Positions 4,261 through 42,884 of a DNA stretch of 64,000 nucleotides are shown here, in pieces. This DNA comes from Kordiimonas sp. SCSIO 12610. GTDB taxonomy: Bacteria > Pseudomonadota > Alphaproteobacteria > Sphingomonadales > Kordiimonadaceae. The notes beneath the pieces are model-generated. The model did not search any database. It was given only the letters and a program-made list of their open reading frames with translations, and had not been told where the DNA came from. Every line of letters begins with the position of its first letter. The stretch's first letter is position 1. The DNA lies in the NCBI RefSeq assembly GCF_024398015.1, contig NZ_CP073747.1, positions 2,304,501-2,368,500 of the forward strand, given 5' to 3'. A program made the translations under genes and the position numbers.

Positions 4261-4629
4261 TTACTTCTTCTTACCGGCAATCGGAATTGCTTTACCCTTA
4301 CGAGTACGAGCATTCGTTGATGTACGCTGACCACGTACCGGTAATTTATTACGGTGACGAAGACCACGATAAGTCTTAAGGTCCATCAACCGTTTAATAT
4401 TCATAGCAACTTCACGACGGAGATCACCTTCTACAGTAAATTCACCATCGATCATTTCACGGATTTGAATAACTTCTGAATCCGTAAGTTCCGACACACG
4501 ACGTTCACGTGGGAAATTCAGCTTATCGCAAATTCCCTTGGCCGAAGTTGGGCCAATACCGTGGATATATGTCAAAGCGATTTCTACACGCTTATTTGTC
4601 GGAATGTTAACGCCAGCAATACGCGCCAC
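4261..4629 (-). CDS. rpsM: 30S ribosomal protein S13
   Basis: Head protein S13, 122 aa. The frame is open to an ATG at 4677, but the GTG at 4629-4627 is the likely start: it gives the family N-terminus [18 protein letters not shown] and has AGGAG 7 nt upstream. The C-terminal [16 protein letters not shown] tail, which contacts the P-site tRNA, is intact. The gene follows adk; no rpmJ or infA is found between secY and rpsM. Confidence 0.97.
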
Positions 4630-4744
4630 AACCGTTCTCCTGATCAAACTAAGTTCACGTTCAATATACAGAATCACTGAACGTGCAAAGTCCGGGGATT
4701 ATATGGAGAAACCCTCGAACGTCAACCATTCAGTGATAGTTTTT

Positions 4745-40186: not shown

Positions 40187-40276
40187 TAAAACACCTAAGC
40201 ACAAAATAAACATAATAAAAAACTATTTACTTTCAACGCTTTAATATATTTTCAGTCAATATTTTGAAAAATATAC

Positions 40277-40305
40277 TTGTCAATTCTGATTAGGTGTACT
40301 ACATA
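40277..40305 (+). promoter_or_regulatory. Sigma70 promoter of the YtrA/ABC operon
   Basis: -35 TTGTCA at 40277-40282, exactly 17 nt spacer, -10 TACATA at 40300-40305. Predicted transcription start is near 40312, giving a leader of about 265 nt before the first small gene. Confidence 0.7.
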
Positions 40306-40316
40306 ACTAATACACC
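40293..40316 (+). promoter_or_regulatory. Probable YtrA-type operator
   Basis: Perfect inverted repeat GGTGTA-N12-TACACC covering the -10 element and the predicted start site, where a bound repressor would block transcription. Known YtrA-subfamily operators have GTGTA ... TACAC half-sites at similar spacing. A YtrA-type gene is in the same transcript, so autoregulation is expected. Confidence 0.65.
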
Positions 40317-40338
40317 GGCACGATAAAACGCCTAAACA

Positions 40339-40577
40339 GTTCAAAAGAACGGAAGGCACAGCGAGGAAAAAGCCGGGGTAACTTGGATCTCTCCCAGTCC
40401 GGGTTACGACAGCGAAAGAAAAAAAGAGCCCACCAAATAAAAATAAGGCTCAGGACAGCGAGGAAACAAAATGGGGGTCGGCGACACACCGATCCCCATT
40501 TTCTAAAAAACGACAGCAAATAAAAAATAACTGGTCACAAAAAAACAAACGACCAGAACAACAGTGAGGAAAAGATT
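40339..40577 (+). repeat. Structured leader: five hairpins, each followed by an ACAGCGAGGAAA-type linker
   Basis: Linker copies start at 40358, 40409, 40456, 40513 and 40561 (spacing 51, 47, 57, 48 nt): ACAGCGAGGAAA, ACAGCGAAAGAA, ACAGCGAGGAAA, ACAGCAAATAAA, ACAGTGAGGAAA. Before each lies an unrelated stem-loop: GTTC/GAAC (40339-40350), a 10-bp stem (40378-40407), GAGCC/GGCTC (40426-40452), a roughly 13-bp stem (40470-40502) and CTGGTC/GACCAG (40531-40556). Linker sequence is kept while stem sequence varies, which points to an RNA function. The last linker is the ribosome-binding site of the 45-codon gene. The fourth hairpin contains an 11-codon frame (ATG at 40472) that follows the third linker. 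Confidence 0.7.
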
Positions 40578-40715
40578 ATGTCTATCACACGATACCAAAA
40601 ACTGAAACGCAGCGAACGCCGCATCCGCCGCATTGCCCGCACAACTGGCAAGGCTCAAGGTTCAGTTCAGCAAAACATGGCAATTGCCACTTTTGCTTTC
40701 GCACAAATTTCCTAG
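40578..40715 (+). CDS. Small basic protein, 45 aa, unknown
   Basis: ATG at 40578 preceded by GAGGAAA at ideal spacing, stop TAG at 40713-40715, 13 nt before the gntR ATG. The N-terminal half is strongly basic (MSITRYQKLKRSERRIRRIA) and the C-terminal third is hydrophobic/Ala-rich. It is the first gene after the structured leader. I do not recognise it; coding is supported by the ribosome-binding site and operon position, not by homology. It could be a leader peptide controlling the downstream genes. Confidence 0.5.
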   Translation: MSITRYQKLKRSERRIRRIARTTGKAQGSVQQNMAIATFAFAQIS

Positions 40716-40728
40716 GAAAGGATAGTTT

Positions 40729-41088
40729 ATGAAGCCGGATTGGACGGATACTCAGCCGATCTACCGGCAACTGAAGGACAAGGTAGTGACAGCAATTATG
40801 GAAGGCGCTCTCGCCGAAGGTGAAGCCCTACCCTCTGTCAGAACAGTTGCAGTTGATCTGCAAATAAACCCAATTACTGCCTCAAAAGCCTATCAGGAGC
40901 TGGTTATGGATGGATTAGTCGAGAAACGTCGCGGACTAGGAATGTTCGTGGTGGACGGTGCGCGTGATAAGCTGATGGAGGCTGAACGCGATCGCTTTTT
41001 AAACGAAGAATGGCCGCGTGTGATGGAAACAATCAGACGTCTTGGCCTTGATGCGGATGAGCTGCTTAAACGCGGCTTATCGAACTAG
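40729..41088 (+). CDS. GntR family regulator, YtrA subfamily
   Basis: 119 aa. N-terminal winged helix of the GntR type (PIYRQLKDKVVTAIMEGALA, then LPSVRTVAVDLQINPITASK and LVEKRRGLGMFV) and a short C-terminal helical part of about 45 residues, the hallmark of the YtrA subfamily, which has no large ligand domain and usually represses its own ABC-transporter operon. AAAGGA precedes the ATG. The operator candidate lies at 40293-40316. Confidence 0.92.
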   Translation: MKPDWTDTQPIYRQLKDKVVTAIMEGALAEGEALPSVRTVAVDLQINPITASKAYQELVMDGLVEKRRGLGMFVVDGARDKLMEAERDRFLNEEWPRVMETIRRLGLDADELLKRGLSN

Positions 41089-41097
41089 GAGGGGATC

Positions 41098-41955
41098 ATG
41101 AGCGAATATGTGATTGAAGCACAAAACCTCTCTAAAACATTTGGTGATTTTAAAGCGCTAGACAACGTAAGCTTCAAAATGCCAATTGGCCGTATCGTTG
41201 GTGTTATCGGTGAAAATGGTGCCGGCAAAACCACAATGCTGAATGCTGTTCTTGGCCTTAGCTCTTACGAGGGTGAACTTAGCGTTAACGGCCACAACCC
41301 AATGACAGAACGCAACAAACTGATGCAGGATGTTTGCTTTATCGCAGATGTTGCAACGCTTCCAAAATGGATGAAAGTTGCTGACGTTATCGATTATGTT
41401 GAAAGCATACACCCACGCTTTAACCGCGAAAAAGCGATGGACTTTCTGAACCGCACGAGCGTTCCATTGAACCGCAAGGTAAAAGCGCTTTCAAAAGGAA
41501 TGACCGTTCAAGTTCATTTGGCCGTGGTTATGGCAATTGACGCCAAACTATTAGTTTTGGACGAGCCAACACTTGGCCTTGATATCATCTTCCGCAAACA
41601 ATTTTACCAAAGCCTACTCGAAGAATATTTCGATGAAGAACGCACAATCATCATCACGACCCATCAGGTCGAGGAAGTTGAGCATATCTTATCGGACGTC
41701 ATCTTCATCAAAGGCGGTAAAATCGTTCTTGAAGAAGAGATGGAAGACCTGACACAGAACTTCATTGAACTAATGGTAGCACCAGGCAATGAAGAAAAAG
41801 CTCAGGCCTTGGGTCCAATCAGAAAAGGTGCCAACTTTGGCCGCACAACATGCATCTACAAAGGCGTTTCACGCGAGGAATTGAACGCACTTGGCGAGAC
41901 AAGAAGACTTGGCCTTGCTGATATCTTTGTAGCGACAATGACAGGAGAAGGGTAA
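41098..41955 (+). CDS. ABC transporter ATP-binding protein (ABC-2 type)
   Basis: 285 aa. Walker A GENGAGKTT near residues 38-46, signature LSKGM in place of LSGGQ, Walker B LLVLDEPTLGLD, switch His in ITTHQVEEVEH, then a roughly 65-residue C-terminal domain. The degenerate signature is common in YtrB-like exporters. Perfect AGGAGG-like site before the ATG. It overlaps the permease start by 1 bp. Substrate unknown; YtrA-controlled systems often respond to cell-envelope stress. Confidence 0.92.
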   Translation: MSEYVIEAQNLSKTFGDFKALDNVSFKMPIGRIVGVIGENGAGKTTMLNAVLGLSSYEGELSVNGHNPMTERNKLMQDVCFIADVATLPKWMKVADVIDYVESIHPRFNREKAMDFLNRTSVPLNRKVKALSKGMTVQVHLAVVMAIDAKLLVLDEPTLGLDIIFRKQFYQSLLEEYFDEERTIIITTHQVEEVEHILSDVIFIKGGKIVLEEEMEDLTQNFIELMVAPGNEEKAQALGPIRKGANFGRTTCIYKGVSREELNALGETRRLGLADIFVATMTGEG

Positions 41956-42884
41956 TGAACAATAATTATATAGCCCTCATTAAACGCGATTATTTGGAAG
42001 GAAAAGGTGGGTACTTCTGGGCGCCATTGGTTGCTCTTGGTATTGCAGTATTCTTTTCCCTACTTCCAATACTTGGCCTTACTGACAGCGGGAATGTCTT
42101 TGTTATCAATTCTGATAATATCGACCTACAGGAATTCTTGCGACGGATTAATGAACACACTCCTGAAGAAATAAGTGCAGGAGCAACATTTATCCTGAGT
42201 GGCTTTGCATCACTTGTATGGGTACCGCTTCCTTTCGTGATTGTGTTTACATTGCTTGATCAGCTTTATAGCGAACGTAAGGATAAATCAGTTTTATTCT
42301 GGAAATCCATGCCAGTGTCTGACACTGAGGAAGTTCTAGCAAAGTTCATCATGCCAGTATTCATCGCACCTGTAATTTACTTGGCTATCTTCTTTGTTGG
42401 AACGTTGATCTTTGCTTTCATCTTAAGCATTGTATCGCTTTTCCTAGGTGGGCCACTTGTTGAATTATGGCCAATTTGGAACCTTATCCAAGGATGCATT
42501 GTCTTTATACTAACCTTCTTCACAATGATTTTGTGGGCTGCCCCATTACTTGCATGGTTCATGCTAGTATCAGCATATGCTCCGAAGGTTCCCTTTATCT
42601 TTGCCTTCGCACCACCAGCGTTCATTATGGCACTTGAAGGTATTATGTTTGAAGGCACAAACTTTGCTGAATGGATTGGCACGCGTCTTGGTGGCTGGCT
42701 CGGCAGCGTAGAAGGCATTCGCCACTATAACGTAAACGATGTTGAAGACTTGTTTACTGTTGGATGGGACTTCTTGGGCACAATAGTTGGCCATAGCCTC
42801 ACAAGTGGAAATTTCTGGGTAGGTATTATCATCGCTGCAGCCTTCCTTTTCGGAGCAATCGAAATCCGCAAACGGGCGATGTAG
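41955..42884 (+). CDS. ABC-2 type transporter permease
   Basis: 309 aa, about six hydrophobic segments; it begins MNNNYIALIKRDYLEGKGGY with a cytoplasmic coupling region and has a large extracytoplasmic loop around residues 35-75. The stretch SERKDKSVLFWKSMPVSDTE after the second membrane segment is typical of ABC-2 permeases of the YtrC/D type. Partner of the ATPase just upstream. Confidence 0.88.
   Translation: MNNNYIALIKRDYLEGKGGYFWAPLVALGIAVFFSLLPILGLTDSGNVFVINSDNIDLQEFLRRINEHTPEEISAGATFILSGFASLVWVPLPFVIVFTLLDQLYSERKDKSVLFWKSMPVSDTEEVLAKFIMPVFIAPVIYLAIFFVGTLIFAFILSIVSLFLGGPLVELWPIWNLIQGCIVFILTFFTMILWAAPLLAWFMLVSAYAPKVPFIFAFAPPAFIMALEGIMFEGTNFAEWIGTRLGGWLGSVEGIRHYNVNDVEDLFTVGWDFLGTIVGHSLTSGNFWVGIIIAAAFLFGAIEIRKRAM

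Follow-up and report, generated by a model that had tools for sequence, protein, structure and literature searches.

A conserved hairpin leader with tandem candidate pairing sites for one predicted sRNA, upstream of an Arg-rich small ORF in Kordiimonas and related families

Upstream of an Arg-rich reading frame of 45 amino acids, and downstream of a promoter-like sequence with an operator-like palindrome, the genome of Kordiimonas sp. SCSIO 12610 has a leader (40312-40577, extent approximate) in which five hairpins alternate with five short linkers, and the question is what such an arrangement might be for. Positions given here are those of the window, that is, the whole stretch of 64,000 nucleotides that was analysed. 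The stretch 40312-40582 has a predicted minimum free energy of -67.7 kcal/mol (z = -4.66, with none of 200 shuffles equally low), and its linkers follow each other at intervals of 47, 50, 54 and 52 nt. The first-pass annotation, which described five hairpins with linkers about every 50 nt, was right in this. It also gave all linkers as ACAG(C/T)GAGGAAA, and this applies to three of them (starting at 40358, 40455 and 40561; the outer two had been placed correctly, the middle one at 40456). The other two, ACGACAGCGAAAG and ACGACAGCAAATA, lack GAGGA and carry ACGACAGC, at 40406 and 40510, respectively. What all five have in common is the core ACAG(C/T)(G/A)A and not GGA, which is missing from two of the five. 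The linkers had been called single-stranded, and this holds for some more than for others: the probability that 8 nt are unpaired is 0.62, 0.19, 0.30, 0.48 and 0.09 for the candidate sites 1 to 5 of Table 1, where the value for site 2 refers to its ACGACAGCGA part.

The promoter-like elements were found by reading, and their layout looks similar in relatives by eye. A consensus promoter scan does not list 40277..40305 and has another match on the plus strand, at 40249-40277 (6 matches, 4.7 expected). Transcription would start at about 40311-40313, and the palindrome GGTGTACTACATAACTAATACACC is presumably the site of the GntR-family repressor encoded downstream. Attenuation by an intrinsic terminator was rejected, as a terminator-like site is absent from the plus strand of the leader. 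A short ORF in each unit was also considered and rejected; an 11-codon frame follows linker 3, and its stop is missing in the leader of a same-genus relative (L014). No Rfam family reaches its gathering score over the leader, the sole match up to E 10 scoring 9.2 bits, in agreement with the earlier remark that no named RNA family has this layout. Elsewhere in the window, an Alpha operon ribosome binding site (RF00140) at 4597-4688 on the minus strand scores above the gathering score, which is an ordinary feature.

Table 1. Features of the leader region, the genes behind it and the predicted sRNA gene (window positions unless a contig is named)
Feature	Position	Strand	Remark
Promoter-like -35 TTGTCA (40277), 17 nt, -10 TACATA (40300)	40277..40305	+	by reading
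Palindromic operator-like GGTGTACTACATAACTAATACACC	40293..40316	.	similar palindrome 5' of orthologous genes
Hairpin 1	40330..40357	+	predicted fold
Candidate sRNA site 1, ACAGCGAGGA	40358..40367	+	10 pairs, -17.3 kcal/mol
Hairpin 2	40372..40413	+	predicted fold; 3' arm holds part of site 2
Candidate sRNA site 2, UCCGGGUUACGACAGCGA	40398..40415	+	18 contiguous pairs (3 G-U), -32.3 kcal/mol
Hairpin 3	40426..40451	+	predicted fold
Candidate sRNA site 3, GACAGCGAGGA	40454..40464	+	11 pairs, -20.2 kcal/mol
Hairpin 4	40468..40502	+	predicted fold, 14 bp
Candidate sRNA site 4, ACGACAGC	40510..40517	+	8 pairs, -12.2 kcal/mol
Hairpin 5	40531..40556	+	predicted fold
Candidate sRNA site 5, ACAGUGAGGA	40561..40570	+	10 pairs (1 G-U), -15.4 kcal/mol
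45-aa Arg-rich small ORF (MSITRYQKLKRSERRIRRIARTTGK...)	40578..40715	+	87% identity in same-genus relative
GntR-family regulator	40729..41088	+	PF00392; best NCBIfam match PmtR, below cut-off
ABC transporter ATP-binding protein	41098..41955	+	PF00005
Putative ABC-2 type membrane protein	41955..42884	+	PF12730, 23.3 bits, below cut-off 27
Predicted sRNA gene (L208, L238, L275)	G000 contig 1, about 794063-794180	-	outside window

The regulator gene behind the small ORF, which we take to be of the YtrA subfamily, is called ytrA in the following. A small basic ORF of 33-48 amino acids with 5-10 Arg is found in the equivalent position in 28 loci of the host's family. Four of these small-ORF proteins matched zero Pfam families at E <= 10 and do not belong to the DUF1127 type by this measure, and the only NCBIfam match of the small ORF has an E value of 0.12, far under the cut-off of that model. 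Attenuation before a DUF1127 gene has been described, with a different mechanism, in the part of PMC12218461 used here. In one relative (L035, G002) the Arg-rich small ORF is doubled in tandem 5' of ytrA, and in some others (L070, L071, L073) a different tiny ORF (e.g. MLPVPAWIATPFWERKTR) is found there and no such leader was seen.

A ytrA-type gene is present in 28 of the 29 genomes of the host's family (f1), with G028 giving no match, and the leaders before it are 206-439 nt long. All 28 of them have two to seven copies of the motif, at a median spacing of 53.5 nt, and all fold with z < -2 (40 shuffles each). The leader is thus a real and conserved feature, in which linkers and strong folding are both kept among relatives, as the first-pass annotation had anticipated. 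At the level of single words, ACGACAG occurs 43 times in these leaders (present in 25 of the 28) compared to a mean of 1.36 in 100 shuffles, and AGCGAGGA occurs 60 times (in 27 of the 28) compared to 0.62; on the reverse strand of the same leaders there are zero occurrences of either. The U content is 10.8% in the f1 leaders and 19.7% between the start of the small ORF and ytrA. The idea that unrelated stems are kept paired agrees with a reading of single leaders, but covariation hardly shows it, with double changes in 3 of 24 pairs in an alignment of 8 leaders.

In three further families of the order (f2, f6 and f7) the leaders are shorter, 45-142 nt with the exception of one of 427 nt. Here, ACGACAG is found in one to four copies in 15 of 16 loci, and AGCGAGGA in 3 of 16. 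These counts cover the 28 f1 and 16 f2/f6/f7 leaders; the f3 locus (L136) is truncated by a contig end and was dropped, and the f4 genomes have no ytrA match. In some of these loci the beginning of the small ORF contains the motif, and as the frame differs (ATGTTAAACACGACAGCG in L131, ATGGTAAACGACAGC in L135) the motif is taken as a nucleotide-level one. Twelve f5 and seven f8 loci were read and no such leader was seen in them. Stray words do occur, such as ACGACAG just inside ytrA (L158) and AGCGAGGA just upstream of ytrA (L148). In the genome of the window, ACAG(C/T)GAGGAAA is found at 6 places elsewhere; of the five that were read, four precede an ORF and one is apparently coding.

A possible partner for the linkers is encoded outside the window. 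In the 29 f1 genomes, the pattern CCCGRG-N(1-4)-ACGACAG occurs at 131 places and its reversed form at 27, and the matches to CCCGAGTCACGACAG include one conserved class that lies between larger ORFs and whose antisense strand reads as an sRNA-like gene. Around the antisense matches 36 loci were inspected, with the sRNA in 28 and absent in 8. The gene consists of a promoter-like TTGACC (by inspection), two hairpins, a seed, and a GGCC terminator with a T-run, and the stretch between the two hairpins and the terminator is UAUCCUCGCUGUCGUGACUC. The locus in this genome folds with z = -5.81. With a gene of its own between ORFs, a conserved structure, a seed and an intrinsic terminator, it is best explained as a predicted trans-acting sRNA. 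Its two upstream helices do covary: among 24 of the 28 f1 copies (L242, L258, L263 and L264 were left out), double changes are found at 15 of 16 pairs, and double-change cells number 75 compared to 21.9 in shuffled data, where 0 of 500 shuffles came as high, and to 2-17 in slid controls.

The seed itself, ATCCTCGCTGTCGTGACTC, is identical across 43 aligned copies from 42 genomes, and 19 seed columns are invariant. This overstates the real invariance, because the copies were gathered by exact match to CGCTGTCGTGACTC(A/G)GGC, which is much of the seed, and copies with altered seeds would be missed. ACTC(A/G)GGCC and ATCC, which flank the 11-letter core, are conserved yet were not imposed by the pattern search. 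A four-pair helix is predicted within the seed, which is a point against the proposed pairing. In 10 loci, of which seven carry the sRNA, no Rfam family reached gathering level, and the sRNA is apparently undescribed.

Each of the five linkers is complementary to a part of the seed UAUCCUCGCUGUCGUGACUCGGG, over 10, 18, 11, 8 and 10 contiguous positions, respectively. The complement of this one seed includes both AGCGAGGA and ACGACAGC, which overlap in it, and this explains the alternation of the two motifs between linkers. Site 5 and the Shine-Dalgarno-like GAGGA ahead of the small ORF overlap; for sites 1-4, the distance from their first position to the start codon is 68-220 nt. When a strict site is defined by at least 8 pairs and an energy of -12 kcal/mol or lower, and one f1 seed is used for all f1 leaders, the 28 leaders contain 106 sites (1-7 per leader) compared to a shuffled mean of 8.16 and a maximum of 16. 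Among the controls, the reverse strand has 6 such sites, and 3,898 nt of small-ORF regions and 10,185 nt upstream of the operator have 2 each. With a looser cut and the seed of each genome itself, 40 leader/sRNA pairs give 175 sites, against 38.2 with shuffled leaders and 41.1 with shuffled seeds. These pairs leave out G027, G029, G040 and G058 (sRNA not found) as well as G028 and G300 (no ytrA match), and G052, which has two sRNA copies, is represented by one of them. By itself, the energy rule is unspecific, giving at least one chance site in 11 of 12 f5 and 2 of 7 f8 upstream regions. A site begins 15-19 nt ahead of the small ORF in 21 of 27 paired f1 leaders. In f2/f6, 7 of 12 leaders have a site that begins at the start codon (0 to +10), and this is taken as the older arrangement. 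Judged by these sequence comparisons, in which seed-complementary sites are well above chance, the predicted pairing of linkers with the sRNA is well supported.

Two further observations bear on the pairing. All eight f2 copies of the sRNA have CUCAG where the others have CUCGG, and the sole f2 leader site that reaches the variant position (L130) has CUGAG and not CCGAG. This weakly suggests one compensatory change between the two molecules, a single event, because the f1 seed would also pair there by wobble (-29.8 vs -30.5 kcal/mol). The other observation is on accessibility. An initial result, that sites are more open than background (P about 1e-11, using the 154 sites out of 175 that have at least 8 pairs), was discarded as unfair, since site maxima had been compared to single windows. 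Against equal-length random windows drawn from these leaders, the openness of the sites is not clearly raised, with a mean of 0.195 vs 0.173 (sd 0.020) and maxima of 0.219 vs 0.208.

The distribution of the two elements is similar. By an exact seed-plus-T-run pattern, the sRNA was looked for in 296 genomes of the order and is found in 28 of 29 genomes of f1, 7 of 8 of f2, 6 of 7 of f6 and 1 of 2 of f7, i.e. in 42 of the 46 genomes of the four families that have the leader in its full or short form. In the order's other families it is found in 0 of 250 genomes (f3 0/1, f4 0/4, f8 0/32; in f5 the pattern has 2/213, two chance matches without the GGCC terminator). The sRNA-positive families are thus the four with the leader or its short form. 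There are exceptions at the level of single genomes: G027, G029, G040 and G058 have a motif leader without a pattern-detected sRNA, and G034 (f7) has the sRNA and a leader without a qualifying site.

Several known systems resemble one or the other partner. CsrB/RsmZ-type sponges and leaders have repeated GGA-containing sites in a structured RNA and bind CsrA, and a protein such as CsrA had been proposed as the partner of the linkers. This is probably wrong, and a CsrA sponge is rejected here, as a CsrA gene is found in 0 of 29 f1 genomes (3 of 14 control genomes were positive); the GGA-free linkers also differ from such sites. The 5' UTR sponge for MicF is known as OppX. Sponge RNAs that sequester an sRNA include CrfA in Caulobacter (CrfA/SisA-D) and SroC for GcvB, and MicF is sponged by a 5' UTR (all from the part of PMC12559287 used here). 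The present leader would share with the CrfA/SroC/OppX type the pairing with an sRNA, with sponging as a candidate function, but it differs in having up to seven tandem strict sites for one sRNA, separated by hairpins. Searches of an open-access library brought up no report of a conserved leader in which sites for one sRNA stand in tandem.

On the side of the sRNA, SorX and SorY from Rhodobacter sphaeroides have a similar hairpin, C-rich segment and GGCC terminator, and their models align end to end (L263, L238); the C-rich segment is CCUCCCUGUUGGA in the models and CCUCGCUGUCGUGA in the present sRNA. The best scores, 31.0 bits for SorX (RF02784) and 33.2 bits for SorY (RF02651), are below the gathering scores of 46.6 and 111, and the seed differs. 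The present sRNA has a promoter-like sequence of its own, unlike SorX, which derives from a 3' UTR according to the part of PMC8625941 used here. It may be a distant, sub-threshold relative of the two. Matches to suhB/mmgR (RF00519) are very weak (17.6 and 15.7 bits, gathering 41), and unrelated families also match the sRNA loci weakly, e.g. sraA with 27.1 bits (gathering 56) on the other strand of L312. SorX and SorY function in oxidative stress in Rhodobacter (PMC8625941 and PMC7074977, both in part), which fits an oxyR-like neighbour of the present sRNA and proves nothing. Of 26 sRNA loci, 21 adjoin oxyR-like or ahpDC-like genes, with an oxyR-like gene downstream in 16 and an ahpD/ahpC-like gene in 5; in this genome the neighbours are ahpD/ahpC-like. 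A common upstream gene, called tadC-like without a family match, is found in 22 of 26. The neighbour proteins that were tested are fragments and fall below NCBIfam cut-offs except for an AhpD core domain.

Taken as a whole, we consider it quite likely that the linkers are pairing sites for one trans-acting sRNA, with the hairpins as spacers, and that the small ORF is repressed in this way. If both RNAs are transcribed and meet in the cell, as we infer, the sRNA would pair with the linkers through its seed while the hairpins keep the sites apart, and Hfq could assist. Since site 5 overlaps the Shine-Dalgarno of the small ORF, an sRNA bound there would cover it and most likely keep the small ORF from being translated, and the ytrA-ABC mRNA would be lowered as well through coupling or decay. 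Sites 1-4 would most likely raise occupancy, recruit decay, or titrate the sRNA once the operon is derepressed; at site 2, which overlaps the 3' arm of hairpin 2, the unpaired part is a possible toehold. The leader would then probably be a multi-site target of the sRNA, and perhaps a sponge for it too. This is close to the earlier ideas of a sponge or of a leader that sets expression, with the protein replaced by a putative docking array for an sRNA, and the earlier interpretation is thus partly supported. To our knowledge, sRNA targets mostly have one or two sites. The present analysis would supply the two partners of a regulatory RNA circuit that is apparently unreported, an sRNA with a seed conserved across four bacterial families and a leader with up to seven strict sites. 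With a conserved 5'-leader array of this kind, one can test directly whether the number of sites determines how strong repression is or makes the mRNA a sponge, and the circuit gives a first hint at the regulation of an undescribed group of Arg-rich small proteins.

How much of this is repression and how much is sponging can be weighed from the position of the sites. It is plausible, if somewhat short of what we expect, that the leader is mainly a sponge, so that the induced operon sequesters the sRNA and frees its other targets, and repression of the small ORF is secondary. Four of the five sites are too distant from the start codon for a direct block of initiation, the number of strict sites in f1 leaders goes up to seven, and a separate tandem array is found in G004. 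On the other hand, the start-codon sites of f2/f6 are in leaders that are mostly short, and the older role thus looks like ordinary repression. A more elaborate version, which we regard as somewhat less likely than not, is a signal-gated sponge: once the repressor leaves the promoter, each transcript would bind several copies of an oxyR-linked sRNA, and the signal for the ABC transporter would thereby free the other targets of this sRNA, including other Arg-rich small proteins.

Other explanations do without the sRNA or make it secondary. The linkers could tune translation of the small ORF as ribosome standby sites or as Shine-Dalgarno decoys, since three of them have the sequence of ribosome-binding sites before other genes of the genome. 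This is improbable, as it leaves unexplained why linkers free of GAGGA are retained and why all five complement one sRNA seed; in addition, an ATG follows closely only behind linkers 3 and 5 in the window, and the form that is widespread in f2/f6/f7 is ACGACAG and not AGCGAGGA. Autoregulation by the Arg-rich small protein through binding to the ACGACAGC RNA motif, with the match to the sRNA being secondary, is very improbable in our view. The motif does precede Arg-rich small ORFs at unlinked loci, and CcaF1 of Rhodobacter is a described example of a small RNA-binding protein (PMC10253847, in part), but the motif complements a conserved sRNA seed, and long sites are also found in other 5' regions, before ORFs whose products are not of this Arg-rich small type (L186, L200, L212, L216, L222). 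Lastly, the units could be inverted 3' ends of the sRNA, terminator hairpin plus seed, that spread as a repeat without a regulatory role. Leaders do have a GGCC hairpin followed by CGAG-N-ACGACAGC, which looks like the sRNA terminator and seed read on the other strand. We give this very little credence: between units and between species the stems vary and the sites are retained, the counted motif words are confined to the sense strand, and the motif is kept over four families.

Pairing with the sRNA may extend to other genes. ACGACAGYRA...GAGGA...ATG is found at 22 places in the 29 genomes, against 0 for the reversed pattern; three of these are ytrA leaders and some are apparently coding. Unlinked Arg-rich small ORFs with a similar leader are found in L166, L172, L174, L175, L191, L206 and L207, with an RNase HII-like gene downstream in L166, L172, L174 and L175, and an opposite-strand ORF in between in L166 and L175. 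In L213 (G004 contig 42), six tandem 13-nt units of CCCCGAGTTACGA are followed by CCCGAGTTACGACAGCGA and a predicted ORF of 443 amino acids at the contig end; this is a repeat-type array of the candidate sRNA site. A pspA-like gene in L232 (G018) has a leader with CCCGGGTACGACAGCGA and hairpins, and in L193 and L199 (G011 and G009) ACGACAGCGAGACAGCGA is found upstream of an ahpC-like gene near the sRNA.
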